64,000 bases of DNA from a virus, in the IMG/VR virus record IMGVR_UViG_3300020733_000013, positions 1 to 64,000 of that record; one strand, 5' to 3'. Below the pieces are notes generated by a model, which did not search any database, was not told the origin of the DNA, and saw only the letters and a program-made list of their open reading frames with translations. Position numbers and translations under genes: made by a program. Each line of letters starts with the position of its first letter. The stretch's first letter is position 1. Below, in pieces: positions 11,623 through 57,668 of this stretch.

Positions 11623-11643
11623 GTATAATTAACGGATTATACT

Positions 11644-12990
11644 ATGGCAATCGTACAAATATCAAAGATTCAACACAGAACAGGCGCAAACGTTGACTTA
11701 CCTCAACTTGACGTAGGTGAGATCGGGTTCGCAAGTGATGAACGTAAAATTTATATAGGAAATGATCCTGTATTATATCCACCAGTAGGTGACGGAACAA
11801 CACAAACTGAAATCTTAACAGATTCAAGTACACTAAGTTTTAATCAGATTAACGGTACAAACAATACTGCTATCAGTCTTAATTCAACTGCCCCCGGTGA
11901 GTTGCTAGTTGCACAAGAAATCAATGGTGTGCTTACTTGGGTCAATGGTGGTAGCACGACAGGTGTTCCAATTGATTTAGGCAATGCATCTAACGTTAAA
12001 CTTGAAGGTGGGTTCAACGGTGCAGTACTACAATCAGACGGCATGGGTAATCTATCATGGGTTACTAATGGTGCTGTGCAATATGCAATCGCAGGTATCA
12101 CAAGTGCTGATACAGGCGTATTAACAACTACAACAACAAACTATATTCCAACTGGTGCTGCTGTAACAATTACAGGAATTACTGATTCAGGTGGCGCATC
12201 GTTCCAAACAGGTGGTGCCGGTGGTACTAACATGTATTATGTTAAACGTAATAATGATGGTTCATTGAGTTTGTATGAGGATAGCGGCTTGTCCTCACCA
12301 GTTGCAACTAACGGCTTCTTGTCTTATGTTGCTACTACTGGTACAATCACTGCAATGGTACAAGCATCAGGTGCAGCAAGTGCAGGCGGCTCAAATACAC
12401 AGATTCAATTTAATGATGGTGGTAGTACATTAAACGGAACAGGTAACTTAACATATAACAAAACAACAAACGTACTTACAATGTCAGGTAATATTGTTGT
12501 TGGAAATGTTGTTGGTAACAGTTATGGTTACTTCAATGGTCCAATAGGAAACACAACTCCTAATACAGGTAAGTTCACTAGCACTTTTGTTGGTAACACA
12601 ACTGCCAACGTTTTAGTAACAGGTGGCAATGTTTCTGCAACTGCTAATATCACAGCAGATATTATTCATGCCACACACAATGGTTCAGGAACTAACTTCC
12701 AAGTTGGTGATGATGCTTGGATTGGTGATATCAATACTACAAATACACTAGTCATCAAGGGTCAGCAAGACCCTACAACGGGCTATGTTGTATTTGGTAA
12801 CGCAGATACAACTAGCACATTAGGTCGTAGTGGTTCAGGTGCATTGACATACAACGGTGATTTTACTGCTAACGGTAACGTAACTGCCGGCAACATCCAC
12901 TTAGGTACTTGGTCAATCTTTGCAAATACTAACGGTATCTATGCAAACAACGGAACACATACGTTCAGCATTGGTTTGACCCAAATCTGA
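11644..12990 (+). CDS. Tail-fibre-like virion protein
   Basis: 448 residues. It begins MAIVQISKIQHRTG, a typical N-terminus of aquatic T4-like phage fibres and structural proteins. The rest is low-complexity Gly/Thr/Asn/Ser beta sequence with a fibre-like block (GGSNTQIQFNDGGSTL) and repeated NGNVTAGNI-type elements shared with the long fibres at 34655 and 59614. It is probably a receptor-binding or fibre component acting outside the particle. Its start codon is buried in an inverted repeat overlapping the late promoter. Confidence 0.75.
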   Translation: MAIVQISKIQHRTGANVDLPQLDVGEIGFASDERKIYIGNDPVLYPPVGDGTTQTEILTDSSTLSFNQINGTNNTAISLNSTAPGELLVAQEINGVLTWVNGGSTTGVPIDLGNASNVKLEGGFNGAVLQSDGMGNLSWVTNGAVQYAIAGITSADTGVLTTTTTNYIPTGAAVTITGITDSGGASFQTGGAGGTNMYYVKRNNDGSLSLYEDSGLSSPVATNGFLSYVATTGTITAMVQASGAASAGGSNTQIQFNDGGSTLNGTGNLTYNKTTNVLTMSGNIVVGNVVGNSYGYFNGPIGNTTPNTGKFTSTFVGNTTANVLVTGGNVSATANITADIIHATHNGSGTNFQVGDDAWIGDINTTNTLVIKGQQDPTTGYVVFGNADTTSTLGRSGSGALTYNGDFTANGNVTAGNIHLGTWSIFANTNGIYANNGTHTFSIGLTQI

Positions 12991-12996: not shown

Positions 12997-13041
12997 CTTA
13001 ATACGCTCTTAATTCTGAGAGTTTATGCAGTACCCACTGCG

Positions 13042-13066
13042 TAGCGGCTAGAACCCGCTATTTTTT
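13042..13066 (+). terminator. Terminator or attenuator-like hairpin in a 5' leader
   Basis: TAGCGG / CCGCTA 6-bp stem with 7-base loop followed by TTTTTT. Directly upstream is a second hairpin, GCAGT / ACTGC (13027-13040). It lies between the late promoter at 12989 and the start at 13081, so it either ends upstream read-through or attenuates this gene. Confidence 0.6.
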
Positions 13067-13080
13067 ATAAGGAAAAACAA

Positions 13081-14307
13081 ATGGGACGTCCTCTAAACAA
13101 AAAGTGGTTCGGTAACGAAAACGTTAACGACTCAGGTGAAACACAAAGTAATTTAACTCCTGCATCTGGTGTACAGATTGAAGGTGAAGGTGTTGCTAGT
13201 GTTACAATTAATACTGCTGGTTCATATTCTGCAGGTTTGCCATCAGTAACATTCAGCGCACCTAACTTAGCTGGTGCCGGTGGTGTTACCGCTACTGGTG
13301 TAACACATGGTAAGGCATTATCAGCAGCTACTACTGCTAATGGTTCAGGATACAACTTTGGTGATGTATTGACTGTAGTAGGTGGAACTTCTACTACAGC
13401 AGCTACATTTACAGTTGCTTCAACATTGGTAGTATCAGCAGTTAAAAGTGCTGGCGGTACAGGTTATGCTGACGGTGACTTGTTAACATTCAGTACAGGT
13501 TTCTCACCATCATTAATCTTGCGTGTCAATCGTCCAGGTGGCGGTACAGGTTCACCGGACAATTTTACAATTACTCAAGCTGGTCGCCGTACTAGTGCTA
13601 ACCCAACTAACCCTGTGACTTATGATAGTCGCACAGGTTCAGGGTCAGGATGTACAGTTACTTTAGGTTTTGGTGTTTATAGTTTCAGTACTGTAGTACA
13701 AGAAGGTGATTATACTGCAATGCCAAGTAACCCTGTTAGCTTTACAGGTGGTAGTGGTACAGGAGCAGCAGCAACAGTACCGTTTGGTGTAAAAAGTGTT
13801 TATGTTACTGATCCAGGTTCTGGATACACAACAGTTGCAGATGCAGCAATTACATTCAGTGCAGGCGCCGCAGCAGCTACACCAGTATTGACAGTTGCAA
13901 GTGACACACCTTACAGTGCAGAAGCATTCCCAAGCATTATTGCTTATGGTGTTGCTACACTAGGTGGTACAAATCAGTATGCTGATATTATCAAACAAGA
14001 AAACACAACTCGTTACAAAATCAGAACAGGTGATGGCGTAGGTTATTGCAACTTGAAAACAACTGGCGTTGCAAGCGCAGTTGGTGAAATGACTATCAAA
14101 GCAACTGACAGTGCAGGTAAAACATACTATGTCAAGAAATTGACAGCACGTAGAGTAACATTAGTTCCATACGGTTCAAGTGGTTGGTTATTCCCATCTA
14201 CTACAGAATCAGATGGAACAGTTGTTTATCAATCTGCTCACTGGACAATGACAACTAGTGATCCTACATATAACAGTTCAACAACTGTTATTATCGAAAA
14301 CGCTTAA
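13081..14307 (+). CDS. Virion structural protein (GRPLNKKWFG family)
   Basis: 408 residues. It starts MGRPLNKKWFGNENV, a distinctive N-terminus of virion proteins in aquatic T4-like phages. The middle has repeated Gly/Ser/Thr-rich beta units of the kind GSGYxxGDxLTxxGG (e.g. GSGYNFGDVLTVVGG, GGTGYADGDLLTFSTG, DPGSGYTTVADAAITFSAG). The C-terminus (YYVKKLTARRVTLVPYGSSG) looks like a compact folded domain. I infer a tail or neck-associated structural protein. A terminator follows. Confidence 0.7.
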   Translation: MGRPLNKKWFGNENVNDSGETQSNLTPASGVQIEGEGVASVTINTAGSYSAGLPSVTFSAPNLAGAGGVTATGVTHGKALSAATTANGSGYNFGDVLTVVGGTSTTAATFTVASTLVVSAVKSAGGTGYADGDLLTFSTGFSPSLILRVNRPGGGTGSPDNFTITQAGRRTSANPTNPVTYDSRTGSGSGCTVTLGFGVYSFSTVVQEGDYTAMPSNPVSFTGGSGTGAAATVPFGVKSVYVTDPGSGYTTVADAAITFSAGAAAATPVLTVASDTPYSAEAFPSIIAYGVATLGGTNQYADIIKQENTTRYKIRTGDGVGYCNLKTTGVASAVGEMTIKATDSAGKTYYVKKLTARRVTLVPYGSSGWLFPSTTESDGTVVYQSAHWTMTTSDPTYNSSTTVIIENA

Positions 14308-20864: not shown

Positions 20865-20890
20865 AACGGGCCACAGTGCCCGTTTATTAT
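20865..20890 (+). terminator. Rho-independent terminator of the early operon
   Basis: AACGGGC / GCCCGTT 7-bp stem, 6-base loop, then TATTATT. The tail is T-rich but interrupted. Confidence 0.75.
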
Positions 20891-21353
20891 TAGTTTATAG
20901 GTGTCCCAGTACCTTGAAATATGGCTATAACCCGTCCTAACCACAGTGACGGTAGAGTGATGACGACTAACATCTAATTTATAGGACTACCCATTTGGAT
21001 GCCTAAACGCCTTGCCACTGCAAGTAACGTTTCCTATATCTTAACGGTTGTGATGTAGTAATACACTTTAAGAATGCCAAAAGATAGTAATTGCGATAGA
21101 TACTTTTGGGCTGGATAACACTTCCCGATGAATCATGTGTTATCATAACAGCGAATGCAGCAAATTCCCTTTATGGGTTAGTGAGACATAGACAATCCTC
21201 CACTGTAATATTTGAATTCATCGTCGCCTAAGTTCCTCAAGAATGTTTTGGTGTGGTAGGTTTATATCTACTCGCCATTGCCTAAGAATATTATTCTAAG
21301 TCCTAAACAAATATCCCATAGAAATTTTAGATATATAACCCACTTGGATTTCA
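20891..21353. other. About 460-bp non-coding region with serial stem-loops
   Basis: No open reading frame of useful length on either strand. Several local stems occur in order: CCGTC/GACGG (20932/20948), CTTGC/GCAAG (21011/21020), CCAAAAG/CTTTTGG (21077/21103), GATAACAC/GTGTTATC (21114/21137), GTAG/CTAC (21256/21268) and AGAAT/ATTCT (21085-21097 plus 200, i.e. 21285/21293). The two longest are adjacent. It might encode a structured RNA, or be a decayed gene or origin-type region. No tRNA, tmRNA or group I intron signature was recognised. Confidence 0.45.
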
Positions 21354-21361
21354 GATAAATA
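21354..21361 (+). promoter_or_regulatory. Late promoter (GATAAATA) with RBS stem-loop
   Basis: TGTAT (21363-21367) and ATACA (21375-21379) flank the ggag site. The predicted late start near 21367 falls at the end of the left arm. Confidence 0.7.
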
Positions 21362-21379
21362 ATGTATCCGGAGAATACA

Positions 21380-22141
21380 ATGGCAGATTATACCTTAGAC
21401 GAATTAAAAGAACAATTATTTCAGAATATTCGTTATCGTATGGGTGAGGGTATCATTGATTTAGAAATTGATCCTCAACATTGCGAAGCAGCATATCAAT
21501 ATGCAATTAAAATTTACCGTCAACGAGCACAAAATTCCACAAAGGAATCTTATACATTGTTGACAATGACCACCCACACAAATACATATACACTACCCAA
21601 GGACTTTCAAAATGTCCGTCAAGTATTCCGTAGAACCGTTGGGTTAGAAACAGGCCCAGCAGCTAGTAGTTTTGATCCGTTCAGTAGTGCTATCTTAAAC
21701 ACCTACTTGTTAAACTATAACTATGCCGGTGGTTTAGCAACGTATGACTTTTATGCAGGATACATTGAAATGGCTGCACGTATGTTTGGTGGCTATGTTA
21801 TCTTTACATTCAACAAAGTAACCAAAGAACTTAAAGTTGTACGTGACATTAAAGCTGACGGTGAGCAGATACTTATTTGGGGTGACTTAGCTAGACCCGA
21901 AGAAGAATTGTTACTTGATCCAGGATCAGGTATTTGGATTGGTGACTTTACATTAGCTACATTAAAACTAGTTATTGGTGAAGCACGTGAGAAGTTTTTA
22001 ACAATTGCAGGCCCAGGTGGAGGAACCACACTAAATGGTACCGCATTAAAAGCAGAAGGTCTTGCACAACAAAATCAATTGATTGATGAGTTGAAACGTT
22101 ATGTTGACGGTTCAGAACCACTAACTTGGATAATCGGATAA
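21380..22141 (+). CDS. 13: gp13-like neck / head-completion protein
   Basis: 253 residues from the ATG with ggag upstream; the ATG at 21362 lies before the predicted late transcript start and was rejected. The N-terminal layout (DELKEQLFQNIRYRMGEGII, a short acidic turn, AAYQYAIKIYRQRAQ, then TYTLPKDFQNVRQVFR) resembles T4-type neck protein gp13. In T4, gp13 and gp14 close the filled head before tail joining. The gp14/gp15-like genes lie nearby on the other strand, which supports the call. Moderate confidence because similarity is by pattern. Confidence 0.58.
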   Translation: MADYTLDELKEQLFQNIRYRMGEGIIDLEIDPQHCEAAYQYAIKIYRQRAQNSTKESYTLLTMTTHTNTYTLPKDFQNVRQVFRRTVGLETGPAASSFDPFSSAILNTYLLNYNYAGGLATYDFYAGYIEMAARMFGGYVIFTFNKVTKELKVVRDIKADGEQILIWGDLARPEEELLLDPGSGIWIGDFTLATLKLVIGEAREKFLTIAGPGGGTTLNGTALKAEGLAQQNQLIDELKRYVDGSEPLTWIIG

Positions 22142-28077: not shown

Positions 28078-28085
28078 GATAAATA
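28078..28085 (+). promoter_or_regulatory. Late promoter (GATAAATA) with RBS stem-loop
   Basis: AATAT (28087-28091) and ATATT (28098-28102) flank the aggag site of the tube gene. The predicted late start is near 28091, at the end of the left arm. Confidence 0.7.
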
Positions 28086-28104
28086 AAATATAGGAGAATA
28101 TTAT

Positions 28105-28740
28105 ATGGCAACAGCCTCACAATCACTGTTCAATATGACCGTAGGAGCTGACAATGCACCAGCTTCACAGGGCTTGTTGATGCCAAAATTGCAGTTCCGT
28201 TTCAGAGCATTGTTCTTAAACTTCGGCGTTGGTGGTTCTACACAAGAATTGACAAAACAAGTTATTGACATTGCACGTCCAAACGTAAGTTTTACGGAAA
28301 TTCCAATTGATGTGTACAACAGTAAAATGTATCTAGCAGGTAAGCATGAGTGGACAACTACTACTGTTAACTTGCGTGACGATGCATCTGGTAGCGTAAG
28401 CAAACTAGTAGGTCAACAACTACAGAAACAAATGGACTTTGTTGAACAAGCTAGTGCTGCAAGTGGACAAGACTATAAGTTCCAAATCAATTATGAAGTA
28501 TTAGACGGTGGTAACGGTGTGTTACAACCTAATGTCTTAGAAACATGGGAACTTTATGGTTGCTTCATTCAAGCTGCAAACTACAATAACATGAACTATT
28601 CAACAAACGAACCAGCAACAGTTAGTTTGACAATTCGTTATGATAACGCAATTCAAGCTCCACTTGGTTCAGGTATTGGTACAAGTGTTGGTCGTGCTTT
28701 TGGTGGCTCATCAGTTACTGGTATCGGCAGAAACGGATAA
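28105..28740 (+). CDS. 19: Tail tube protein (gp19)
   Basis: 211 residues, beta-rich, of the size expected for T4-type tube protein gp19 in aquatic phages (about 200). It has the order expected of the family: conserved N-terminal region with MPKLQFRFRALFLNFG, central NLRDDASGSVSKLVGQQLQK, and late WELYGCFIQAANYNNMNYST. It forms the rigid inner tube of the contractile tail. Its place directly after the sheath gene matches the T4 order 18-19. Confidence 0.88.
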   Translation: MATASQSLFNMTVGADNAPASQGLLMPKLQFRFRALFLNFGVGGSTQELTKQVIDIARPNVSFTEIPIDVYNSKMYLAGKHEWTTTTVNLRDDASGSVSKLVGQQLQKQMDFVEQASAASGQDYKFQINYEVLDGGNGVLQPNVLETWELYGCFIQAANYNNMNYSTNEPATVSLTIRYDNAIQAPLGSGIGTSVGRAFGGSSVTGIGRNG

Positions 28741-30769: not shown

Positions 30770-30777
30770 AATAAATA
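30770..30777 (+). promoter_or_regulatory. Late promoter (AATAAATA) with RBS stem-loop
   Basis: CTACTAT (30778-30784) and ATAGTAG (30791-30797) form a 7-bp stem whose loop holds the agg site of the gene at 30799. The predicted late start near 30783 lies inside the left arm. Confidence 0.75.
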
Positions 30778-30798
30778 CTACTATTATAGGATAGTAGA

Positions 30799-31287
30799 AT
30801 GACCAAGAAATTAAGTGAACTTTTTGACCTACCCCCTTCTGATGATAATGTCAATGAAGAATTGATAGAAGCGGAACAGGTTCAAGAAGTTACACAAGAA
30901 GCATATTCAAATTTAGAAAAAATTGAGAATGCACTACCACAAGTTCGTGGATTAGAGGCCAGTGACACTGAGATGGATACACTTGCACAATTAGCAACGG
31001 AAAGCTACAAAGACTTAATGGACTTGGGAATGCAAGTTGATAGCCGTTTTGCTAGTGAAATATTCAACAGTGCTGGAACTATGTTAGGTCATGCTATCAC
31101 GGCAAAGACCGCAAAGATTAACAAGAAACTTAAGATGCTAGATTTGCAACTTAAGAAAGCAGCACTTGACCAAAAAGTTGCAGCAAAAACTGAAGAAATT
31201 GAGAATGTACCTGTTGGAGAAGGTAGCTTAGTAGACCGTAATGAACTACTGAAAACTATTCTGGCAAGTAAAAAACAAGACAAGTGA
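30799..31287 (+). CDS. 16: Terminase small subunit (gp16)
   Basis: 162 residues, helical, acidic N-terminus followed by a long helical region (EAYSNLEKIENALPQVRGLE ... ESYKDLMDLGMQVDSRFASE ... KTAKINKKLKMLDLQLKKAA). This is the pattern of gp16-type small terminases in aquatic T4-like phages, which form rings that regulate DNA packaging by gp17. The large subunit gene does not follow, unlike T4, and must be elsewhere in the genome. Confidence 0.75.
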   Translation: MTKKLSELFDLPPSDDNVNEELIEAEQVQEVTQEAYSNLEKIENALPQVRGLEASDTEMDTLAQLATESYKDLMDLGMQVDSRFASEIFNSAGTMLGHAITAKTAKINKKLKMLDLQLKKAALDQKVAAKTEEIENVPVGEGSLVDRNELLKTILASKKQDK

Positions 31288-31293
31288 TAAATA
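31286..31293 (+). promoter_or_regulatory. Late promoter (GATAAATA) with RBS stem-loop
   Basis: TTAAT (31295-31299) and ATTAA (31306-31310) flank the agga site of the gene at 31314. The predicted late start is near 31299. Confidence 0.68.
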
Positions 31294-31313
31294 ATTAATA
31301 CAGGAATTAAACA

Positions 31314-31931
31314 ATGAAAAGCCTACGTCATTATCTAATGGAAAGTGTCAGAACATATCGTTACACGATTAAAATCGCTGGCGATGTCGATAAGAATTTT
31401 ATCGACTTGTTCACACACAATCTTACAAAATTCGATCCAGTAAAGATTGAAGACTCAAAAACTACTCCAGTTCAAAAAGATCCATATGGATTTCCTGACC
31501 TACAGAATGAATCTATTACGATTATTAAAGCAGAGTTCAAGTACCCTGCAACTGAACCAATGATTCAGCAAATTGCACAATTGTTAGGTAAGAACATCAA
31601 TACTGTACGTGTATTAACTACAGATTATGATGACAGTATCAACAGTGAAGCAGACAAATATGCTAATCAAATGGATGCAGAAGAAAAACAAGCATTACTA
31701 AACACTGAAACATTAGAAGATAATGGTAAAGAAGCAAGCAAAGAATATGCAAATCAATACTTAGATAAGGTTGTTCCTAAGAAGCCAAGTATTGATATTC
31801 CTTATGCAGGCAAACAAACTCCTACTCAACCTAACAAGAGTAAAGAAGGAATCAACACAACTAGTGCTATGGGCAACGGTCGTGTTACAATGCCAGCAAA
31901 ACCACAAACAGGCTCTAGAAAGGCAGGATGA
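31314..31931 (+). CDS. Probable head-interior protein
   Basis: 205 residues. The N-terminus MKSLRHYLMESVRTYRY is short, basic and hydrophobic with an L-M-E/S site resembling gp21-type (I/L)xE cleavage. The first half is mixed alpha/beta (YRYTIKIAGDVDKNFIDLF, ITIIKAEFKYPA). The second half is charged, helical and then Pro/Thr/Lys-rich. It lies beside the small terminase. I infer a core or internal protein; no exact homologue is named. Confidence 0.6.
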   Translation: MKSLRHYLMESVRTYRYTIKIAGDVDKNFIDLFTHNLTKFDPVKIEDSKTTPVQKDPYGFPDLQNESITIIKAEFKYPATEPMIQQIAQLLGKNINTVRVLTTDYDDSINSEADKYANQMDAEEKQALLNTETLEDNGKEASKEYANQYLDKVVPKKPSIDIPYAGKQTPTQPNKSKEGINTTSAMGNGRVTMPAKPQTGSRKAG

Positions 31932-43409: not shown

Positions 43410-43916
43410 ATGCATTCTGACAAATATGGCTTACAAGTTTTAAACGAATCTGATCTATGTGATTACTACTTACGTAATCCAGATCAGGTATTGAAACATG
43501 CCATTGTTGAAAAACAAATCACATTCCCTAGCGATTTAGATTTAGAAAATATCCCAGAATTATTAGAGTACGCACCACTTGATATTACTATTGACGAGTT
43601 TGACAGTATCTATCAAAACACATGGTACATGCCAGATGAATACAAGAATTTTGATATTGTCAAATATGTACTAGACTTGTGCAAAACAGACCAAGAACTG
43701 CAAAGAGTGGGTGACGAGTTATTGAAGTTTCAGGAACGAGACTTGTTTGTATTACTGTGCTACTGTAAATATTTGGTAGACACAATGCGTAAACATAATA
43801 TCGTTTGGGGAGTGGGTAGAGGATCAAGCGTGTCTAGTTATGTATTGTACCTGATAGGGGTACACCGCATAAATAGCATATTCTATGATTTAGACATAGA
43901 TGAATTTTTAAAATAG
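43410..43916 (+). CDS. N-terminal half of a split, abridged DNA polymerase III alpha (DnaE-like) protein
   Basis: 168 residues. The C-terminal part (ELLKFQERDLFVLLCYCKYL, NIVWGVGRGSSVSSYVLYLI, then GVHRINSIFYDLDIDEFLK) matches the DnaE palm segment before the catalytic Asp pair: E. coli GPGRGSGAGSLVAYAL ... LDPLEFDLLFERFLNPER. The G-R-G-S-S nucleotide-binding motif is at 136-140. The gene stops exactly where DnaE would continue into PDFDVDF, and the gene at 3162 begins exactly there. There is no PHP domain and no intein or split-intein motif at the break. It heads an early operon with the clamp loader. The protein pair may form a heterodimer. Confidence 0.78.
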   Translation: MHSDKYGLQVLNESDLCDYYLRNPDQVLKHAIVEKQITFPSDLDLENIPELLEYAPLDITIDEFDSIYQNTWYMPDEYKNFDIVKYVLDLCKTDQELQRVGDELLKFQERDLFVLLCYCKYLVDTMRKHNIVWGVGRGSSVSSYVLYLIGVHRINSIFYDLDIDEFLK

Positions 43917-47804: not shown

Positions 47805-48343
47805 TGAATAAAGTTCTTAATGAAGGTTTTGACTATCACGACTTAGTGGATCAAGTTATCCCAGAAATCTCAATTGACGAGTACGCAGCTAAAATGGGTA
47901 CCAACGATGAGATTGTTACACTTACATTTACAACAAAAGGCAAGCAACAAGCTAGTGATTTGGTTGACTGGCTAGAACGCGGATACGACTTTGTATTAGA
48001 TGCTGAAGTCAGTGAAGGTGAAGTTTCACCAGGTAAGTATTTAGTATTTGTAGAAATGAATCGTAGAACAAGTGTGCCAGAACGTATTTGTGAAATGGTT
48101 GAAGACATGAAAACATTAACAGATTTAGACAGTGACAAATGGTCTGTTAAGATTGAAGATAAAGAATACAAAGCTGACAAAGAAATTCTAAAGCAACATA
48201 TTATTTTAAGCCCGCAAAAATATCGTGAACTCAAAGAAACAGACTTAAATGAAATGCGTCAACGTGCTGGATTAGAAACACATAAGATATACTCTAACCC
48301 AGACAAAATTTTAAAAGATTACTTAGCAAAGGCAGGATTATAA
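47804..48343 (+). CDS. Conserved late protein, possible head-interior protein
   Basis: 179 residues. The N-terminus MNKVLNEGFDYHDLVDQV includes an L-N-E/G site like those cut by T4 prohead protease. The rest is alpha/beta (VTLTFTTKGKQQASDLVDWL, YLVFVEMNRRTSVPERICEM) with a helical C-terminus. It is coupled to the gene before by TAATG. Assignment to the head interior is inference from the N-terminus; function unknown. Confidence 0.6.
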   Translation: MNKVLNEGFDYHDLVDQVIPEISIDEYAAKMGTNDEIVTLTFTTKGKQQASDLVDWLERGYDFVLDAEVSEGEVSPGKYLVFVEMNRRTSVPERICEMVEDMKTLTDLDSDKWSVKIEDKEYKADKEILKQHIILSPQKYRELKETDLNEMRQRAGLETHKIYSNPDKILKDYLAKAGL

Positions 48344-48344
48344 A

Positions 48345-49082
48345 ATGGCAACATTACTAGCACAGAAGTCAGGTACAACTGACAATGCGATAGCAAAGAG
48401 TGACGACCACCATGATGCATTAGCAAGTGATCCTACAGTTAGTGCATTCCCATCAGGAAGTGCATTCGGCTCAACAACACCAGCTGCATCTACAGCAGCA
48501 AGCACAAGTTCATTCGGAGGGTCTTCAAGTGGATTCGGATCAACAACAAGTACAAGTTCAGCAGGAGGCTTTGGCAGCTCCTCAGGTTTCGGTTCAACAA
48601 CGTCCAACTCTTTCGGAGCATCAACGTCAGCAACAGCAGGCGGTTTCGGAGCTTCAACTGGATTTGGAGCAGCTTCAACTGGATCAACAGGTTTCGGCGC
48701 GTCAGGCGGGATGAGTGGTGGAATGCAACAAAGTTCTTTCCAATCAGTTCAAAATCAAGGAGAATCATTGAAGTCAGGCGGCGGCGCAATGAGTGAAGGT
48801 GGAGAATCTACAGTCAAGCTAGACAAAGATGCCACTGACTGGATTAACAAAAAGATGCGCCCAATGATGGGTTGGATCTACATGTTGACATGCACTTGCG
48901 ACTTTGTATTGTTCCCAATCTTATGGTCAGTATTACAAGCAATGACACATGGTAATGTAACTAGTCAATGGCAACCATTGACACTACAAGGTGCTGGATT
49001 GTATCACATCGCAATGGGTGCAGTTCTAGGTATCGCAGCTTACGGTCGTACAAAAGAAAAGGTAGCCGGCGTAGCTTCATAA
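48345..49082 (+). CDS. Holin with FG-repeat disordered N-terminal region
   Basis: 245 residues. Residues ~35-125 are Ser/Thr/Gly/Ala-rich with about nine Phe-Gly dipeptides at 8-14-residue spacing (SAFGST, SSFGGS, SGFGST, GGFGSS, NSFGAS, TGFGAS). This resembles nucleoporin FG repeats and lacks predicted structure. The C-terminal ~75 residues (MRPMMGWIYMLTCTCDFVLF, then PILWSVLQAM, then LTLQGAGLYHIAMGAVLGIA) look like the three-transmembrane holin family of gene-transfer agents and phages. Holins form membrane lesions that free endolysin, here probably the GH19 enzyme. The FG extension is unusual. Confidence 0.75.
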   Translation: MATLLAQKSGTTDNAIAKSDDHHDALASDPTVSAFPSGSAFGSTTPAASTAASTSSFGGSSSGFGSTTSTSSAGGFGSSSGFGSTTSNSFGASTSATAGGFGASTGFGAASTGSTGFGASGGMSGGMQQSSFQSVQNQGESLKSGGGAMSEGGESTVKLDKDATDWINKKMRPMMGWIYMLTCTCDFVLFPILWSVLQAMTHGNVTSQWQPLTLQGAGLYHIAMGAVLGIAAYGRTKEKVAGVAS

Positions 49083-49085
49083 ATA

Positions 49086-49114
49086 TTGACGAATAGCACC
49101 TAACGTGCTATACT
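49086..49114 (+). promoter_or_regulatory. Sigma-70-type early promoter for the DnaJ/ClpA operon
   Basis: TTGACG, 17-bp spacer, TATACT, ten bases before the DnaJ-like start codon. Confidence 0.78.
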
Positions 49115-49123
49115 AATAATATT

Positions 49124-49951
49124 ATGAGTGACTATTATCAAACCCTCGGGGTAGCAAAAAACGCTACCCCTGAAGACATTAAAAAAGCATATCGCAGAAT
49201 GGCTGGCATTCACCATCCAGACAAGGGTGGTGATACTGCACAGTTTCAAAAGATTCAAGAGGCATACGAAACCCTCTCTGATCCACAAAAACGTCAACAA
49301 TACGATAATCCAAATCCATTTGGTCATGGTCAAATGCCTGGTGGATTCCCCGGTGGAATGCATGGCTTTCCCGGTGGATTCAGTTTCCAAATGGGTGGAT
49401 TTGGTATGGACGACATTTTTGGACAAATGTTTGGTCATCCAGGACAACGCGGTAGACCACAACAACCTAGCTATCGTACTATAGTTTGGTTAACACTTGA
49501 ACAAGCATACAATGGCGAAGAGCAAATGTTAAACTTCCAAACACCTGGATTAGGTCAACAAACGGTTAAACTGTCAGTGCCCAAAGGCATAGATGATGGA
49601 GCAACACTGCGTTATGATAACCTAATCAAAGACAGTATCTTAATCGCTGAATTTAGAATTCAACCACATGCTAAGTTCCAACGTGATGGTATGAATCTAC
49701 ATTCGGTACATGATATCAGTGTACTAGATTTGATTGTGGGTACAACCATTAAGTTTAAAACTATTTCGGGTAAAGAACTTGATGTTACAGTAAAACCAGT
49801 AACACAACCCGGTAGTTCACTACGCATTGCCGGCGAAGGTATGATAAATGACAGGGGAGCAGGTGACCAATTTATATTGTTGAAACCATTTATTCCTGAT
49901 AGAATTGACTCTCGTATAACTGATAGCATTTTGCAATCAAAACAAAAGTAA
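49124..49951 (+). CDS. dnaJ: DnaJ-like cochaperone (type II, CbpA-like)
   Basis: 275 residues. J domain at the N-terminus (MSDYYQTLGVAKNATPEDIK, with HPD at 31-33), then a Gly/Phe-rich linker (GGFPGGMHGFPGGFSFQMGG), then two beta-rich client-binding domains. The zinc-finger domain of DnaJ is missing, making it type II. J proteins recruit Hsp70 (host DnaK) to substrates. It is followed 22 bases later by a ClpA-like unfoldase. Early expression is indicated by the upstream promoter. Confidence 0.93.
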   Translation: MSDYYQTLGVAKNATPEDIKKAYRRMAGIHHPDKGGDTAQFQKIQEAYETLSDPQKRQQYDNPNPFGHGQMPGGFPGGMHGFPGGFSFQMGGFGMDDIFGQMFGHPGQRGRPQQPSYRTIVWLTLEQAYNGEEQMLNFQTPGLGQQTVKLSVPKGIDDGATLRYDNLIKDSILIAEFRIQPHAKFQRDGMNLHSVHDISVLDLIVGTTIKFKTISGKELDVTVKPVTQPGSSLRIAGEGMINDRGAGDQFILLKPFIPDRIDSRITDSILQSKQK

Positions 49952-49973
49952 ATACCATTTTAAGGAAGCACTA

Positions 49974-52244
49974 ATGCACCCAGAAATCGAAGCCATCATT
50001 GAACATGCAATTGAATTGGCTAAGTCAAAAAGCCATCAATATTGTACAGTAGAGCACTTGTTACTAAGCCTAGTATCACATGCTCCCTTTAAGAAAGTGT
50101 TAGACTCTTATGGAGTTGACACTGAAATGATGACTAAGGAAATTGACGTATACTTAAATGGGTTACAAGCAATTACAGTAACACTAGGTCCCGGACAAGA
50201 GATTCAACCACGTAAAACAAATAGTTTGGAACGTGTTACAAACCGTGCAGTAGCACAAACATTGTTCTTGGGTCGTAAACAAGTTACAACTATTGACCTT
50301 TACTTGAGCATTTCAAGCGAAGCAAATAGTCATGCACATTATTTCTTGTTGAAATATGGCATTGAGAAAAGTCAATTTGTACCTTACTGGCAAAAGAATT
50401 ACAAGAACGAAGGTGCTCTTGTACGATTAAGCAACGAACAAGCAGACGAAATCTTAGAAGAATACACAACAAACTTGACTGATTTGGCTCGTCAGCATAA
50501 ACTAGAACCAATGATCGGTCGTAGCCAAGAAGTTGATGACATTGTAAACGTATTGGCTAAACGTTTCAAAAGCAACGTGTTACTAGTTGGTGATCCAGGT
50601 GTAGGTAAAACTGCTATTGTCGAAGGTATGGCTCAAATGATTGCAGAAGGTAACGTGCCTGAGTTCTTAGTTGGTCACGAAGTTTACAGCTTGGAAATCG
50701 GTAGCTTACTTGCTGGTAGTAAATATCGCGGTGACTTTGAAGAAAAGGTCAAAGCAGTCATTGAAGCACTTAACACCAAGAAACAAACTATCTTGTTTAT
50801 TGACGAAGCACATACAATGCAAGGTGCAGGTTCAAGTTCTCAAAGTGGTCCAGACTTTGCAAACATGATTAAGCCTGCAATTACAAAAGGTACATTGAAA
50901 GTTATTGCAAGTACTACTTGGGAAGAGTACTATGAGAGTTTTGAGAAGGATCGTGCATTAATGCGTAGATTCTATCGTGTCTCAGTAGATGAACCAAATC
51001 GTGATTCAACAGTTCGCATTTTAAGTGGCTTAAGTGGTCGTTTGGATGACTTCCATAGTGTTAAGATCACACCCGAAGCGGTTGAAGCAGCAGTTGACAG
51101 TGCTACACGTTACATGCATGACCGTAAAAATCCTGATAAATCTATTGACTTATTAGATGCAGCTTGTGCTAAACAACGTGTATTAGGTAACAAAGACGCA
51201 CAAATCACTAAAGAATTGATTTACGAGCAAGTTGAACGTATCTCTGGAGTACCAGCAGATAAACTCAGTAACGACAACAACGAACGTATCACAAACCTTG
51301 AGTCTAATATCAAAGACAAATTGTACGGTCAAGAGGAATCAGTTAGTAAAGTACTTGACCGTATATATGTCTCGTTTGCAGGTATCGGTAGTCAAACTAA
51401 ACCACTTGCAAGTTTCTTATTCTTGGGCCCAACTGGTACAGGTAAGACTGAACTGGCTAAGCAATTGAGCAAGAACTTAGATATGCCATTACTCAAATAT
51501 GATATGAGCGAGTATTCAGAGAAGTTCAATGTTAGTTCATTGCTTGGTGCGCCTCCTGGATATGTTGGTTATGGTGAAAGTAGCTTAGGTGGTGGTAAAC
51601 TTATCAATGACTTGAGTAAGAATCCACATGCTATTCTATTGTTTGATGAAGTTGAAAAAGCTCACCCAGATATCTTTAACATTTTCTTGCAATTACTTGA
51701 CGAAGGTCGTGTAACAGGAACTAATGGTAAAGAAGTCAATGCTAAAAACTGTATAATTATCATGACCAGTAACTTGGGTAGTAGTGACAGCGAACGTGCA
51801 GTAATTGGTTTTGGTAGTACTGAACGTACGGGTGATGATGAAAAAGCATTGAAGGACTTCTTCAAGCCTGAATTCAGAAACCGTATTGACTTGATTACTA
51901 AGTTCAACAAACTTGACAATCTTGCAATTAAGAAAGTGGTTATCAAGTTTACTGACGAGTTAAAGAAAGCATTGAAGGATACACAAGATATCGTGTTGAC
52001 TTTAACAGAACCAGTAGTTGATTACTTAGCAGAACAGGGCTACGATAGTAAGATGGGCGCACGTCCTCTTGCACGTAAAATTGATGAACTAATTCGTGTT
52101 CCATTGAGTAAGAAGATTCTTTTTGAACGTATTAGAAGTGCAAATATTACTGTAGTGATGAATGACGGTAAAGTTGATTTTGAAGTACATCAAAAAATGA
52201 TTGCAGAAGTAGGCGAAGATGGCATTATTAAAATCAGCAACTAA
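49974..52244 (+). CDS. clpA: ClpA-like AAA+ unfoldase
   Basis: 756 residues, almost exactly ClpA length (758). It has a double-Clp N domain and a first AAA+ module with GDPGVGKT (about 206-213) and TILFIDEAHTM. There is no ClpB middle domain. The second AAA+ module has GPTGTGKTE (from about 485) and LLFDEVEKAHPD. Downstream lies ERAVIGFGS near residue 611, at the place of the IGL/IGF loop that docks ClpA/ClpX onto ClpP. This suggests it can use host ClpP. T4 itself has no such gene. Confidence 0.9.
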   Translation: MHPEIEAIIEHAIELAKSKSHQYCTVEHLLLSLVSHAPFKKVLDSYGVDTEMMTKEIDVYLNGLQAITVTLGPGQEIQPRKTNSLERVTNRAVAQTLFLGRKQVTTIDLYLSISSEANSHAHYFLLKYGIEKSQFVPYWQKNYKNEGALVRLSNEQADEILEEYTTNLTDLARQHKLEPMIGRSQEVDDIVNVLAKRFKSNVLLVGDPGVGKTAIVEGMAQMIAEGNVPEFLVGHEVYSLEIGSLLAGSKYRGDFEEKVKAVIEALNTKKQTILFIDEAHTMQGAGSSSQSGPDFANMIKPAITKGTLKVIASTTWEEYYESFEKDRALMRRFYRVSVDEPNRDSTVRILSGLSGRLDDFHSVKITPEAVEAAVDSATRYMHDRKNPDKSIDLLDAACAKQRVLGNKDAQITKELIYEQVERISGVPADKLSNDNNERITNLESNIKDKLYGQEESVSKVLDRIYVSFAGIGSQTKPLASFLFLGPTGTGKTELAKQLSKNLDMPLLKYDMSEYSEKFNVSSLLGAPPGYVGYGESSLGGGKLINDLSKNPHAILLFDEVEKAHPDIFNIFLQLLDEGRVTGTNGKEVNAKNCIIIMTSNLGSSDSERAVIGFGSTERTGDDEKALKDFFKPEFRNRIDLITKFNKLDNLAIKKVVIKFTDELKKALKDTQDIVLTLTEPVVDYLAEQGYDSKMGARPLARKIDELIRVPLSKKILFERIRSANITVVMNDGKVDFEVHQKMIAEVGEDGIIKISN

Positions 52245-52938
52245 TTCACCGGGTGTTGACCTGCAAGAGTATCGTGACGAGTTGTACTATAGTCAATATC
52301 AGTACCGTTGCAGGATCACAATACCTCACTTTCGTAGAGCACAATACTATTCACCAGATGAATTTGAACAAATGGTATTAGGCAATAGTAAAAAATTCAT
52401 TAGGTTAAAACAGGATGAAAGAGATACTCTTGCTCAACACTTACCTAGCATCAAAAAAGTATTGCAGTATAGAATTGACAGTAAAAAGAACAAGTCTAGC
52501 AAAGTTCGCGGTGAATATGATACTATCTCTGTATTCAGCAATGACCTACAATCACTACATGATAATTTTGATAACCTAACAGATGCGTGTGTTGACTTCA
52601 CTGAGGTTATCACTACCGGGTATTCGGGGGTCAAAACTTTTGCAAATGAACCTAAACACAAGTATAGAATTTATTTCAAAAGCAAACGAATCCCAGAAGA
52701 CTTCAAAGATGGATTGAAGAAAATCTTAACTACTAACACACAATTGAGACCAAGTCCTGCTCTTAAAATGTGGTTAGATCAGAAAGAAGATAGTCAATGG
52801 TACTGGAATTTCCGTTACATGTCTAGCAGTTACTTTATTGACTATAATGACGAGAGTTATCTTAGCTATTTGGCACTAATGTATGACGGTATGCTGGGTA
52901 GAAAGTACAAATTGGAAAAGCGAGCCGATATCGTCTGA
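52219..52938 (+). CDS. Conserved protein of unknown function coupled to ClpA-like gene
   Basis: 239 residues; its start overlaps the ClpA-like gene by 26 bases. Basic, helical, with conserved-looking YRCRITIPHFRRAQYYSPDE, CVDFTEVITTGYSGVKTF and WYWNFRYMSSSYFIDYNDES. The overlap suggests it is made together with the unfoldase and could be an adaptor, but this is inference. No family recognised. Confidence 0.68.
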   Translation: MALLKSATNSPGVDLQEYRDELYYSQYQYRCRITIPHFRRAQYYSPDEFEQMVLGNSKKFIRLKQDERDTLAQHLPSIKKVLQYRIDSKKNKSSKVRGEYDTISVFSNDLQSLHDNFDNLTDACVDFTEVITTGYSGVKTFANEPKHKYRIYFKSKRIPEDFKDGLKKILTTNTQLRPSPALKMWLDQKEDSQWYWNFRYMSSSYFIDYNDESYLSYLALMYDGMLGRKYKLEKRADIV

Positions 52939-52942
52939 GCAT

Positions 52943-52950
52943 GATAAATA
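52943..52950 (+). promoter_or_regulatory. Late promoter (GATAAATA) within a 9-bp RBS hairpin
   Basis: TAAATACTC (52945-52953) and GAGTATTTA (52962-52970) pair perfectly, enclosing or overlapping the ggag site (52961-52964). The predicted late start near 52956 lies after the left arm, so only read-through RNA from the DnaJ/ClpA operon would fold. Confidence 0.82.
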
Positions 52951-52972
52951 CTCTATTAATGGAGTATTTACC

Positions 52973-53134
52973 ATGGCAAAGATTATTGAGAACGTACTAG
53001 TTGTTAAAGTCAGCAAACTAGTAAAAGAGGGAGCGGATGAGAATCTGATTCCACAAGACACCCAACAAGCATTAGAACAAGTCGCCCAAGAATTATTGGG
53101 TGATTCCGTCATTGTAGAAGTGGAACGAGCATAA
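52973..53134 (+). CDS. Small late protein of unknown function
   Basis: 53 residues from the ATG with ggag upstream; a longer upstream reading frame lies before the late transcript start. Sequence MAKIIENVLVVKVSKLVKEG ... VAQELLGDSVIVEVERA looks like a compact beta-alpha fold. It shares a base with the next start (TAATG). Its RBS is inside a perfect 9-bp repeat overlapping the late promoter. Confidence 0.68.
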   Translation: MAKIIENVLVVKVSKLVKEGADENLIPQDTQQALEQVAQELLGDSVIVEVERA

Positions 53135-53472
53135 TGGCACAAAGTTCAGCATATCAATTGTTGCCACAAACAGCATACAAACAAGTTTCACAAGTGATTG
53201 GTGATAAAGTTCCTGCCGCCGCATATTATATCAAGCAAAACAATATGCAGACATTCACATGGAATCTTACAACATTTACCGGTCTATTACAAATTCAAGC
53301 AACACTAGCAGATAATCCAGGCAATGGTGACTGGTTCACTATCTATAACCTATCAGGTAATCAATTAACTCAAACTAGCTTTACTAATATATCTGGTAAC
53401 TTTGTTTGGGTTCGTGCTGTAATCAATAACTTTGGTTTTGGTGTTGTTCAAAGTGTTAAGGTTAGCTATTAA
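53134..53472 (+). CDS. Small virion structural protein (jelly-roll-like)
   Basis: 112 residues, beta-rich: YYIKQNNMQTFTWNLTTFTG, LLQIQATLADNPGNGDWFTI, NFVWVRAVINNFGFGVVQSV. The pattern matches small beta-sandwich virion proteins of aquatic T4-like phages. No catalytic motif. It is coupled on both sides by TAATG overlaps, so it is translated with the multi-enzyme gene that follows. Confidence 0.65.
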   Translation: MAQSSAYQLLPQTAYKQVSQVIGDKVPAAAYYIKQNNMQTFTWNLTTFTGLLQIQATLADNPGNGDWFTIYNLSGNQLTQTSFTNISGNFVWVRAVINNFGFGVVQSVKVSY

Positions 53473-56400
53473 TGAAAATTGCCGCACTATTAGAAAGTAA
53501 ACAACCATTGATGGAAGGTGGTAATTTAAGTGTGGGCAAACATGAAGCAGAACACTTAGATTTGAAAGTTACAAAACGTAGCTACATGGTTCCCAAACTC
53601 AATGAACTATTAAACGCAATCAATAAAGCATTCAATGTAAAACACAAGGCTCCATTATGGAGTAGTGAATTATTGTCAAGCGGTAAGTTTTTGAGTGGTA
53701 GTAGTTTACATTTCTTTGATGTTGCGGGTATCAGTGATGATACATTCTTTGCTAAGAAGCCAACTGTAGGTGATATTGATACCATGGTTGACAAACGTTT
53801 GGAATTCATTTTACAAGAATTCTTAACAAGTGCAACAAATAAACAAATTGGTCCTGCAAAATTGCTAGGATTTCAAAAAGGTAACGAACAATATTCTGCA
53901 TTGTTTGAGTTACAAGACCCACCCGTAAAAGTACAAATTGACTTTGAATTTGTTTCTTTTGAGAATGGAATGCCTAGCGACTGGGCAAGATTTAGTCATA
54001 GCAGTTCATGGGATGATATCCAACAAGGTGTTAAGGGTGTATTTCATAAGTGGTTGATTCAATCATTGACTACACTAACCAACAAGCAATTCCTGTTACG
54101 TAAAATGATCGGTCGTGGTGCAATGCGTAAAGAAGAGGACATCCCTACAACAGACAACATGTATAGTTTTGCCGTGTCTAGTAAAGAAGGTGGCGGATTA
54201 CGTGCTAAGTACGAACCAGTATTAAATCCTAACACAAACAAACCATTAGTGATTAAGGGTTTGCCTGTAATGAAAGCAGCACCTGCAGCTGGATACGAAC
54301 AAAACATTGGTAAGATTTTTTCAACTATACTAGGCAAACGTCTTGACCCTAAACAAATGCAAGCTATCTCTAATAACTTCTGGTCATTCACTGGGTTAGT
54401 ACAGTTGATGGGTAAGATATTATCACCAGAAGATAAACAAACAGTATTGCTCGGTTTCTTAAACAAAACAATCGGTAAAGGTAGTCAAGGTCTTTACAAG
54501 AACAATCCAGAAAAAGATATCAGTGAAAAAACAACAGCAATCAATTATCTAGTTAAAACATTAGGACTACAATTGCCACCTGAGTTCAATCAAATGATGG
54601 CTGACTATAGAAAAAACTATAAGATGACTGAACTATCAGAAGCAGGTCCTAACTATAAGCGTCAAGGTATCCCACACATTTACAAGCCTGGCTCAACAGT
54701 TGAATTGAAAGATAATGAGTTCATTGAGTTATGTAAAGAAATCATGGCTGATGGTGGTAAACTTGAAGGTGTACCAATCAACTTGAAAGTTGATGGTGCA
54801 GGCATCAGATTTGGTAAAGACCAAAATGGTCGTCCATTCTTTATGACAAGTAAAGTTACAGAACCTAAATACATTGAGAATTTTGGTGACTTTGAAAAGT
54901 ATGGTCGTAGTGTTGGACAAGACGAAGAACGATTGAACTTTACTAAGCAATATGACAATGCATTAAAGACAATATTGACTGCTCCATTTATGAAAGTTAT
55001 CCCTAGTGATACTATCGTACAAGCAGAAATGATGTATACTCCAATGGCTCAACAAGAGAATGGCGGCTTGAAGTTTGTTAACATCCCTTATGATCCTAAA
55101 AAGTTGGGTAAAGAGATGACTCTTGTACCATTCATGTTCAAACAGTTTAGCACTGGACAAGTTCGTCCTGACAGTCAAAAGATTAAAGAAGCACTATTAA
55201 AAACAAGCAATAGTAAAATTAAAATGGTTAACAACAACTTGCAACATAAAGGTATTGATGTTGCTAAGATTGTTAGTCCTATTGTTAAAAACGCAGATAC
55301 ATTAAGTGCTGCGGTTGCTACTCGTGGAACAAATCCTACAAAAGAAAAAGCAAAAGCTATCTTGTCTCAAGCTAGACAACAACTAAGCAATGCTATTATC
55401 AATGGACCTATTCCAGGTAAAGATCAATTGGGTGACATGATTGAAGGTCTTGTTATCAATATGCCTAGTGGTTTACTAGCTAAAGTAACAAGCACAGACA
55501 TGGCAAACAAGATGGCTACTAAAATGGCTGCTCGTCAACCAGTCAAAGGTAATCAACGCCCTGCTGTAGTTGCTGTGGGCAGTGCGATTGGGCATGTAGG
55601 ACATCAACAATTATTCAACCATGCAATCGCTCTAGCAAAACAAGTTGGTGGTCAACCTTACATGTTTATAGGACCTGCAGAAGGTAAAGATGATCCTATT
55701 CCACCAAGTGTTAAAGTTGAAACATGGCATAAGTTATACCCACAACTAGCGAGTAACATATCAACTGTTAGTCATGAGGGCGGTACATTACTACAGAAAA
55801 TCAAACATGAGTTGATTAATCCTCAACCAGGTAAACCACCAAGATATGATACAATTTATATTGTTGTTGGTAGTGATAGACATGACATGGCTGAAAGTTG
55901 GAGCAAATCTCTAATGAAAGCAGTTAACAAGTTCCCTGGATATGAAGGTGTTAAAGTTGTTCCACATGTAACGTCACGTGATAAGAATGAAGGTGGTACA
56001 GGTATAAGCGGAACATTACTACGTAGTGTTTTATCAGACAAAACAAAAACTCCAGAACAGCAATTTGAAGTTTGGAATCATGCTTACAATAGTGGTAACT
56101 ATGGTGCTCAGAAACTACCGGCAGAGTGGATTCAGCACTTAATGAATATTGCTCGTAAGGGTATGGGAATGCAAACTATGAATGAGTCAAGAATCTTTAA
56201 TCCAAAGTCATTAGTTAATGTATATTATGTTTCCCCTAATGGCAATCGTCATAAGTTAGCAAAAAGCATTCCGTATGATTTAGTTGAGAAACTATTACAT
56301 GCATTGAAAGTTAAAAAGAACATTGACATTCACATGGATGATGTTGAAGTTCGTCCTGCTGATCCCTCACAATATACAGTGAGCACCAGTCAGTTTGATG

Positions 56401-57623
56401 AAGGTTCAGAAGAAGCATTACAATATGCAACTAAAGCACATGCTGGGCAAACTCGTTCAGGTGGTGATCCATATATCAGTCACCCAGTTCGTGTAGCTAA
56501 TCATATCAAGCAATTTAAAAAATCACATAACCTAGATGCATTAATTAGTGCAGCATACTTACATGATACAATTGAAGATACTGACACAACACAAGAAATC
56601 TTACACGATTTGTTTGGCGGATTAGTTGCTAGTCTTGTAATGGAACTTACAAGCGATCCAGAACAAATTAAAAAGATAGGTAAGGCTCAATATCTAGCAC
56701 ACAAAATGGCTGCAATGAGTAGCTATGCACTAGTTATCAAACTTGCTGATAGATTAGATAATGTCAAAGATATCACTACTGCTAAGACTCCTGAATGGAG
56801 ACACAAATATGCAACTGAAACTAATCACATCTTAGATTACATTGAAAAGCATCGTGCTTTGTCAGGTACCCATACTAAATTGATTGATATGATTCGTGCT
56901 AAGTTGGCTGAGATTGACCAACCACAGCAAGATGTGGCGGAAGGCAAGAACATGCCAGACTTAGAACATGTTGGCGAAAGAGTAGTATCTGTTATGGATG
57001 CTGAACGCAGACTTGCCCATGGAGATAGAATATTTGCGTTCCACGAAATGGATGAAGAGCCGTTTGAGATTCACAATGTCGGTGAGTTGGCAGGATATGA
57101 TACTGAACAGTTATTGGCAGTACCACAAAGTGTAGCGGAAGAAGCAGACGAACAAAAAAGCTCAAATGTCTTTCAATCTATGGGTAGTCAATTAATTGCT
57201 ATGGGTAATGATGCTGATAAAATTAAAAGGCATGACCCATCAGTTATTGAAAAAGCAATTGATGCTAAATTAGAAAAAATCAATGATCCAAAACTTACAC
57301 ATGTTACGAAATCCTTTTTGAGTAAAGTTGTTAAGTTCAATAGAAGTAATCCAAAAACAATGGCAGCAATATTTGGATTTACCTTCTCTATTATTGCTAG
57401 AGTATCAATGCAATTTAGTCATAATATGGGACTTAGTCCAACACAAGCAACATTACTAATAGAAGCATTATTGCCTACATTGGGTAATTTCTTGGGTTAC
57501 ATTGTCAATGGGTTTAGTGTAAAAGACAGTGTACAAGCTGGATTGATTGCTGGAACAATTGGCGTCGGCGGCACCTTGGCTGCAAGCGGTGCATTGTCTG
57601 AAGATTATTTAGACGAAAAATAA
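53472..57623 (+). CDS. Multi-domain enzyme: nucleotidyltransferase, ligase-like, NMNAT-like, RelA/SpoT HD hydrolase, membrane tail
   Basis: 1383 residues. N-terminus MKIAALLESKQPLMEGGNL resembles a capsid-targeting sequence with L-L-E/S and L-M-E/G sites. Domains follow in order. A nucleotidyltransferase-like GSSLHFF ... VGDIDTMVD (about 74-106). A ligase/adenylyltransferase fold with NLKVDGAGIRFG (Lys439), VQAEMM and EGLVINMPSGLLAKV. An HxGH nucleotidyltransferase resembling NMN adenylyltransferase, with GHVGH near 706 and ISGTLLR near 845. A RelA/SpoT-type HD hydrolase with HPVRVA (about 1004) and HDTIEDT (about 1031). The last ~90 residues contain hydrophobic membrane-like segments. Motifs are seen; injection and substrates are inference. 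Confidence 0.78.
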   Translation: MKIAALLESKQPLMEGGNLSVGKHEAEHLDLKVTKRSYMVPKLNELLNAINKAFNVKHKAPLWSSELLSSGKFLSGSSLHFFDVAGISDDTFFAKKPTVGDIDTMVDKRLEFILQEFLTSATNKQIGPAKLLGFQKGNEQYSALFELQDPPVKVQIDFEFVSFENGMPSDWARFSHSSSWDDIQQGVKGVFHKWLIQSLTTLTNKQFLLRKMIGRGAMRKEEDIPTTDNMYSFAVSSKEGGGLRAKYEPVLNPNTNKPLVIKGLPVMKAAPAAGYEQNIGKIFSTILGKRLDPKQMQAISNNFWSFTGLVQLMGKILSPEDKQTVLLGFLNKTIGKGSQGLYKNNPEKDISEKTTAINYLVKTLGLQLPPEFNQMMADYRKNYKMTELSEAGPNYKRQGIPHIYKPGSTVELKDNEFIELCKEIMADGGKLEGVPINLKVDGAGIRFGKDQNGRPFFMTSKVTEPKYIENFGDFEKYGRSVGQDEERLNFTKQYDNALKTILTAPFMKVIPSDTIVQAEMMYTPMAQQENGGLKFVNIPYDPKKLGKEMTLVPFMFKQFSTGQVRPDSQKIKEALLKTSNSKIKMVNNNLQHKGIDVAKIVSPIVKNADTLSAAVATRGTNPTKEKAKAILSQARQQLSNAIINGPIPGKDQLGDMIEGLVINMPSGLLAKVTSTDMANKMATKMAARQPVKGNQRPAVVAVGSAIGHVGHQQLFNHAIALAKQVGGQPYMFIGPAEGKDDPIPPSVKVETWHKLYPQLASNISTVSHEGGTLLQKIKHELINPQPGKPPRYDTIYIVVGSDRHDMAESWSKSLMKAVNKFPGYEGVKVVPHVTSRDKNEGGTGISGTLLRSVLSDKTKTPEQQFEVWNHAYNSGNYGAQKLPAEWIQHLMNIARKGMGMQTMNESRIFNPKSLVNVYYVSPNGNRHKLAKSIPYDLVEKLLHALKVKKNIDIHMDDVEVRPADPSQYTVSTSQFDEGSEEALQYATKAHAGQTRSGGDPYISHPVRVANHIKQFKKSHNLDALISAAYLHDTIEDTDTTQEILHDLFGGLVASLVMELTSDPEQIKKIGKAQYLAHKMAAMSSYALVIKLADRLDNVKDITTAKTPEWRHKYATETNHILDYIEKHRALSGTHTKLIDMIRAKLAEIDQPQQDVAEGKNMPDLEHVGERVVSVMDAERRLAHGDRIFAFHEMDEEPFEIHNVGELAGYDTEQLLAVPQSVAEEADEQKSSNVFQSMGSQLIAMGNDADKIKRHDPSVIEKAIDAKLEKINDPKLTHVTKSFLSKVVKFNRSNPKTMAAIFGFTFSIIARVSMQFSHNMGLSPTQATLLIEALLPTLGNFLGYIVNGFSVKDSVQAGLIAGTIGVGGTLAASGALSEDYLDEK

Positions 57624-57631: not shown

Positions 57632-57668
57632 CCTCTTTATTGTGTAAATATCTTTATCTTTAAAGAGG
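57632..57668 (+). promoter_or_regulatory. 8-bp inverted repeat over late promoter and RBS
   Basis: CCTCTTTA (57632-57639) and TAAAGAGG (57661-57668) bracket the late-promoter variant TGTAAATA (57643-57650). The right arm contains the agagg ribosome-binding site of the gene at 57674. Transcripts starting near 57656 would lack the left arm. Confidence 0.7.

Follow-up and report, generated by a model that had tools for sequence, protein, structure and literature searches.

The window, a 64-kb stretch of a 75.9-kb IMG/VR phage record, codes for tail sheath, tail tube, neck, helicase, DnaJ, ClpA-like and other proteins. Judged by the neck and tail-tube proteins, its nearest cultured relatives are the jumbo myoviruses Atu_ph07, PA5oct, XaC1, 121Q and RaK2, all at less than 50% identity. 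The gene under study encodes a conserved 53-aa protein without a PHROG match (Table 1). A preliminary description placed it directly downstream of dnaJ and clpA; the gene order agrees, but the 239-aa gene intervenes. The dnaJ-clpA operon is presumably early, and no plus-strand terminator was found in 48000-53600. On the other side of the 53-aa gene, a 1383-aa ORF (53472-57623, +) appears by eye to join nucleotidyltransferase-like and HD (ppGpp-hydrolase-like) stretches. A 168-aa ORF at 43410-43916 (+) carries a piece of a bacterial DNA polymerase III alpha domain (PF07733, E 4e-8); it is unexpectedly short for such a polymerase, which is also unexpected in a T4-like phage.

Table 1. Positions of the features considered in the window.
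Feature	Position	Strand	Remark
Late promoter + 13-pair hairpin (8291-8323), before 149-aa gene	8286-8338	+	p=0.005
Late promoter + 11-bp hairpin (11620-11645), into ATG of 448-aa gene	11616-11646	+	p=0.005
Structured non-coding RNA, ~430 nt	about 20866-21291	+	between MazG gene and neck gene
Neck-gene late promoter (21355), degenerate hairpin	21349-21382	+	-3.9 kcal/mol in the window; strong in relatives
Tail-tube late promoter, no hairpin	28079-28107	+	negative control; after terminator-like repeat
Late promoter + 8-bp hairpin (30778-30797), before 162-aa gene	30771-30801	+	p=0.02
205-aa gene late promoter	31287-31316	+	negative case; directly behind gene; no hairpin, no terminator
Candidate sigma70 promoter TTGACG-N17-TATACT	49086-49114	+	ahead of dnaJ; such matches near chance frequency
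dnaJ	49124-49951	+	probable source of read-through RNA, with clpA
clpA	49974-52244	+	probable source of read-through RNA, with dnaJ
239-aa gene	52219-52938	+	overlaps clpA; stop 4 nt ahead of promoter box
Late promoter box GATAAATA, gp55-type, -13 to -6	52943-52950	+	+1 at 52956 predicted from T4 box rule
Left arm TAAATACTC	52945-52953	+	overlaps promoter box; wholly upstream of predicted +1
SD GGAG	52961-52964	+	ATG of 53-aa gene at 52973
Right arm GAGTATTTA	52962-52970	+	covers most of SD plus SD-ATG spacer
Gene for 53-aa conserved protein, putatively gated	52973-53134	+	relatives encoded by 250 IMG/VR stretches

Read from the letters, 52943-52975 holds an inverted repeat, TAAATACTC/GAGTATTTA, which flanks TATTAATG and surrounds the GGAG site; the perfect 9-bp repeat originally described is real. 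The stem folded by RNAfold at 52945-52970 comprises 11 pairs and a 4-nt loop, the left arm gaining 52954-52955. In T4, the late box occupies positions -13 to -6 (PMC1524935). With the box of the 53-aa gene in that position, +1 would be 52956, and the left arm would therefore be excluded from the late transcript, as the preliminary description had it.

When the flanks were shuffled with ATAAATA and ATG held fixed, 5 of 20,000 shuffles reached the folding energy of this leader, and 78 of 20,000 contained any perfect 9-bp repeat. Opening the SD is predicted to cost 11.2 kcal/mol in read-through RNA vs. 2.3 kcal/mol in late RNA. The SD is thus paired in the predicted long transcript, and the 5' arm is absent from the predicted late one if +1 follows the T4 rule. 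Shuffling and folding of long against late RNA, both named as checks when the repeat was first described, bore the repeat out. The 23 copies of ATAAATA in the window correspond to chance level (24.2 expected); nine of them sit 18-46 nt ahead of an SD+ATG start, the top value of all 21 motif permutations (runner-up, 5 of 17).

The element is conserved at this gene. Using the 53-aa protein as sole query, we collected 80 loci with 50 different leaders, 36 with ATAAATA; of these 36, 31 surpass 95% of shuffles in folding energy (median -11.6 vs. -3.1). It was also kept in all six loci found via the 239-aa neighbor, whose identity ranged from 38 to 93%. Five leaders forming a sub-lineage (L236, L239, L279, L285 and L287) carry a CTAAATA-type promoter, a motif reported for late promoters of phage Aeh1 (PMC1524935), and have a strong intrinsic terminator just upstream without a promoter-SD hairpin; the fold flagged at L239 probably uses part of its terminator. 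A pattern search with the repeat itself matched at least 120 stretches, compared to 30 in all for a scrambled repeat of equal composition. With redundancy removed, the matches listed comprised 71 real and 23 scrambled repeats. The end of the repeat adjoins the ATG of an ORF of 50 or more codons in 57 of the real and 5 of the scrambled ones, and 52 of those 57, with ORFs of 53 to 558 codons, are preceded by the A of ATAAATA.

Similar repeats had been described at other late promoters of the window and called systematic, and about half of that list proved trivial or promoterless. The repeats at 8291, 11620 and 30778 exceed shuffled sequences, but the short ones at 21363-21379 (p=0.27), 28087-28102 (p=0.24) and 31295-31310 (p=1.0) are no better than shuffles, and folding gave no stem at 4103-4125. 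A real 8-bp repeat covers the SD at 57632-57668, but the box there is TGTAAATA instead of NATAAATA. At 8291 the SD lies just outside the stem and its opening cost is unchanged (0.3 to 0.4), so gating is doubtful there. For the hairpin at 11620-11645, the predicted cost of opening the ATG drops from 3.5 kcal/mol in the long RNA to 1.1 kcal/mol in the late RNA; the 448-aa gene behind it has an N-terminal Mtd_N domain, and its upstream neighbor is an exonuclease gene. No hairpin was found at the 7441 start, behind the helicase gene. The ATAAATA at 12990 is directly followed by a freshwater-2 RNA (13006-13083, +; RF02980, 65.8 bits), a member of an Rfam cis-regulatory family.

Across relatives, leaders were compared by gene class at loci for which the tail-tube or the 239-aa protein was the sole criterion of choice. 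Neck leaders (n = 31) had a median folding energy of -14.4 kcal/mol vs. -2.6 kcal/mol in shuffles. Their typical arms are CTCCAGATA..TATCTGGAG, with the SD within the right arm, and variants read CTCCTGATA..TATCAGGAG, CTCCGTATA..TATACGGAG and CCCCAGATA..TATCTGGGG. The fold was significant in 58% of 36 orthologous leaders of the 162-aa gene and in 26% of leaders of the 120-aa gene. The corresponding values were 3% of 36 leaders for the 205-aa gene (median distance from the upstream stop, 8 nt), 0 of 48 for the tail tube (terminator upstream in 21 of 47) and 4% for a fibre-like 1397-aa gene. Since these last three genes have equally good promoters and almost no hairpins, the promoter alone does not create them. 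The repeats are therefore systematic as a gene-specific trait of this phage group, but do not belong to every late promoter, three late genes being consistently without one.

Evidence for conserved pairing comes from the neck gene, the left arm of the 53-aa leaders being too uniform for a test of compensatory change. A gap-free alignment of the neck leaders has 86.8% of its cells paired, and 6 of 12 pairs change on both sides. There are 22 cells with two-sided changes vs. 8.6 in shuffles (0 of 500 shuffles reach 22), and sliding the partner arm lowers pairing to 27-49%. Pairing at this gene has thus been kept by compensatory change. This fixed-register count superseded a test by swapping whole partner arms, which was weak because placement of the right arm could shift freely. 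Tree-based contrasts point nearly all in the same direction and are too few for significance.

The presence of the hairpin also varies with what lies upstream. Among 215 late-promoter starts, 4 have both a hairpin and an upstream terminator, 75 a hairpin alone and 38 a terminator alone; terminators thus accompany 4 of 79 starts with a hairpin vs. 38 of 136 without (Fisher, 2.5e-5, uncorrected for kinship). At the neck gene, the hairpin is strong (at most -8 kcal/mol) in 23 of 24 leaders whose upstream gene ends within 24 nt, and weak in all seven leaders, the window included, with ~390-540 nt of non-coding sequence in between. A 300-nt scan found no terminator before the neck gene; the window's repeat after MazG (~20866-20883) is nearly 490 nt upstream and beyond the range of that scan.

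The intervening sequence looks like an undescribed family of structured RNA. RNAalifold on 40 non-redundant copies gave 44 pairs, 31 of them with two-sided changes, and 96.9% of cells paired; against Rfam 15 there was no match at E<=0.7 except one chance-level hit. Its 19-mer core GAGACATAGACAATCCTCC occurs in 64 IMG/VR stretches, 53 of them with a neck gene at most 1.5 kb downstream. The neck hairpin is weak in 22 of 23 non-redundant loci bearing this RNA; the sole strong one (L354) has an extra ORF between the RNA and the neck promoter. On the neck tree the insert state flips about six times, and the hairpin follows in all three supported contrasts, which are too few for significance. A hairpin that protects the gene from read-through out of an adjacent one should produce just such a pattern.

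Several cultured phages show the same arrangement. A long neck-leader hairpin over a TATAAATA or CTAAATA box was found in XaC1, XbC2, GAP32, Serratia BF and Munch (-18 to -25 kcal/mol, p=0.005), and a hairpin AGCACCTC..GAGGTGCT in 121Q and RaK2. The arms in these jumbo phages are unrelated in sequence to those of the window's clade, but the design is the same. The annotated neck start lies inside the hairpin in 121Q (L325, 335) and RaK2 (L326, 341), where the true ATG is probably a few codons downstream, behind a GAGGTG SD. Vibrio 2.275.O has a weaker neck-leader hairpin, SCTP-2 is ambiguous, and none was found in Atu_ph07 or PA5oct. In a 49-kb stretch of XaC1 (L333), four late leaders carry a hairpin (neck, 38101, sheath and 41928; p 0.01-0.02), the neck gene sitting behind a long run of non-structural genes. 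The XaC1 tube leader has none (p 0.14) and is preceded by a terminator-like repeat.

Of eight large uncultured relatives, seven had a match to a gp55-type sigma (phrog_12791) at E ~1e-70. XaC1 and Munch gave E values of 1e-137 or lower, and T4 itself one of 7e-8. These relatives, XaC1 and Munch provide the evidence that a gp55-type late sigma is used; no gp55 homologue was found in the 75.9 kb of the window's own, incomplete record. PF09111, tried as a late-sigma family, gave no matches, whereas phrog_12791 and phrog_234 did.

We propose, with a probability of about 0.8, that the inverted repeat acts as an RNA hairpin in a promoter-of-origin translational gate of the T4 e/soc/I-TevI kind. Transcripts entering from the dnaJ-clpA-239-aa unit would carry both arms, fold and bury the GGAG, and the 53-aa protein would not be made from them. 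Transcripts from the gp55-type promoter would begin near 52956, past the left arm, and, being unable to fold, would be translated. The gate would be reused at the neck and 162-aa genes in this clade and at four late genes in the XaC1 stretch, chiefly where neither a terminator nor a non-coding RNA parts the promoter from the upstream gene. The preliminary description had envisaged the timing switch of T4. Its core, a hairpin blocking the RBS on read-through RNA and late RNA starting past the left arm, draws strong support from the conservation, the covariation at the neck gene, the G-U excess and the terminator/RNA pattern, but the timing is our and its inference. The 162-aa hairpin gene (30799) has other late genes ahead of it, an arrangement that a gate for timing only would not explain; shielding from any transcript that arrives from upstream is at least as likely a purpose as an early/late timer. 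The 205-aa gene, directly behind another gene and without a terminator yet lacking a hairpin, stands as an exception to the gate, and the hairpin-less 7441 start behind the helicase gene likewise tells against it.

The hairpin might instead act on transcription or RNA stability by ending or attenuating the upstream message or protecting its 3' end, with burial of the SD incidental. Its position right behind the upstream stop codon and its near exclusivity with classical terminators would fit this, as would a T-run between neck stem and ATG in XaC1, GAP32, XbC2, BF, Munch and 121Q. However, the G+C-rich stem and U-run of an intrinsic terminator were not found at 52971, where CCATG comes after the stem. 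A T-run of at least 4 after the SD occurs in just 6 of 30 neck and 0 of 29 162-aa leaders, and a terminator would not need the SD in the right arm, where it lies in the neck, 53-aa and most jumbo leaders. We therefore consider this explanation improbable. Termination may nevertheless add to the gate in jumbo phages with a T-run after the stem, some of whose necks do have the form of a terminator.

Far less probable still is a DNA palindrome serving as a dimeric-regulator site or cruciform over the late promoter. The repeat does overlap the promoter box, and T4 I-TevI represses its own gene by binding at such a position (PMC2988022). Yet genes and phages share no common arm sequence beyond the promoter, loop length varies, the SD is always included, and an operator would be indifferent to an upstream terminator or RNA insert. 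Interior mismatches comprise 21 G-U and 8 A-C, an excess which weakly favors sense-strand RNA over a DNA site. Chance or composition, with TAAATA and A/T-rich leaders pairing easily, holds for the short repeats at 21363, 28087 and 31295. At 52944 and at the neck gene of relatives it is refuted, and as an overall account it is similarly remote: the three hairpin-less gene classes have the same promoters and SDs and show no excess, scrambled repeats are seldom start-adjacent among the matches listed, and few shuffles reach the folding energy at 52943-52975. Least probable are facing or duplicated late promoters with the palindrome as a consequence, for although the right-arm TATTTA reads TAAATA on the minus strand and the divergent 4/53 region of T4 has facing boxes of that kind, the preceding A is missing from the right arm at 52970 (GGTAAATA), the right arm is no box in L006 (GAGTATTTTTC) or in others (GAGTGTTT), and the neck arms have no second box.

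The translational gate that we favor has close counterparts. Hairpin-sequestered RBSs relieved by a late promoter are described for T4 e, soc, 49, I-TevI, I-TevII and segB and for Aeh1 mobE (PMC3014915, PMC2988022), and the e and I-TevI gates were tested experimentally. In the freely accessible literature, the cases that we found concern single genes of T4 and Aeromonas phages, and no systematic survey came up. Applied to T4, our test recovered e, soc and I-TevII, missed I-TevIII and gave no signal at 18, 19, 20, 22, 34 and t; genes 49 and I-TevI were not in the tested list. The T4 gated genes and the window have in common a late box in or next to the left arm, an SD in the right arm and late transcripts without the left arm (predicted here); a position behind early or middle genes may be shared as well. 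Unlike in T4, the genes concerned are those for the neck, 53-aa and 162-aa proteins and, in XaC1, the sheath; the lineage is distant, and the putative gate, predicted here from sequence, persists across hosts, its presence and that of a terminator or RNA insert being mutually exclusive. For CBB, a gp55-like sigma and ATAAATA before structural genes have been reported, the motif also for GAP32 (PMC5259590). The text of that study does not mention a "hairpin"; to its predicted late promoters, the present analysis adds pairing with the RBS, the GAP32 neck gene included.

The T4 gate is apparently widely conserved at several late genes in a large group of T4-like phages and exchangeable with a transcription terminator. 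Its mechanism is already known from T4, where a handful of genes are known to have it; what is new is its putative members in a distant, abundant lineage and, if this holds, that particular genes keep it while its arms are rewritten and that it trades places with terminators or an RNA insert. In a broader proposal, which we think could equally prove right or wrong, late genes right behind another gene in T4-like and jumbo phages would evolve an RBS-hiding hairpin that spans their own promoter; once a terminator or non-coding RNA provided the separation, the hairpin would be lost. This would amount to a repeatedly evolved code in which the start site licenses translation, insulating the gene from any upstream transcript, not just early ones. 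In the phages compared here, which infect many hosts, the hairpin persists at the neck gene and at some other late genes, its arms rewritten and its pairing kept, and it alternates with terminators and an RNA insert. This yields a testable rule for telling from sequence where a late gene has to be protected against read-through, and for predicting wrongly annotated late starts, as at the neck genes of 121Q and RaK2.
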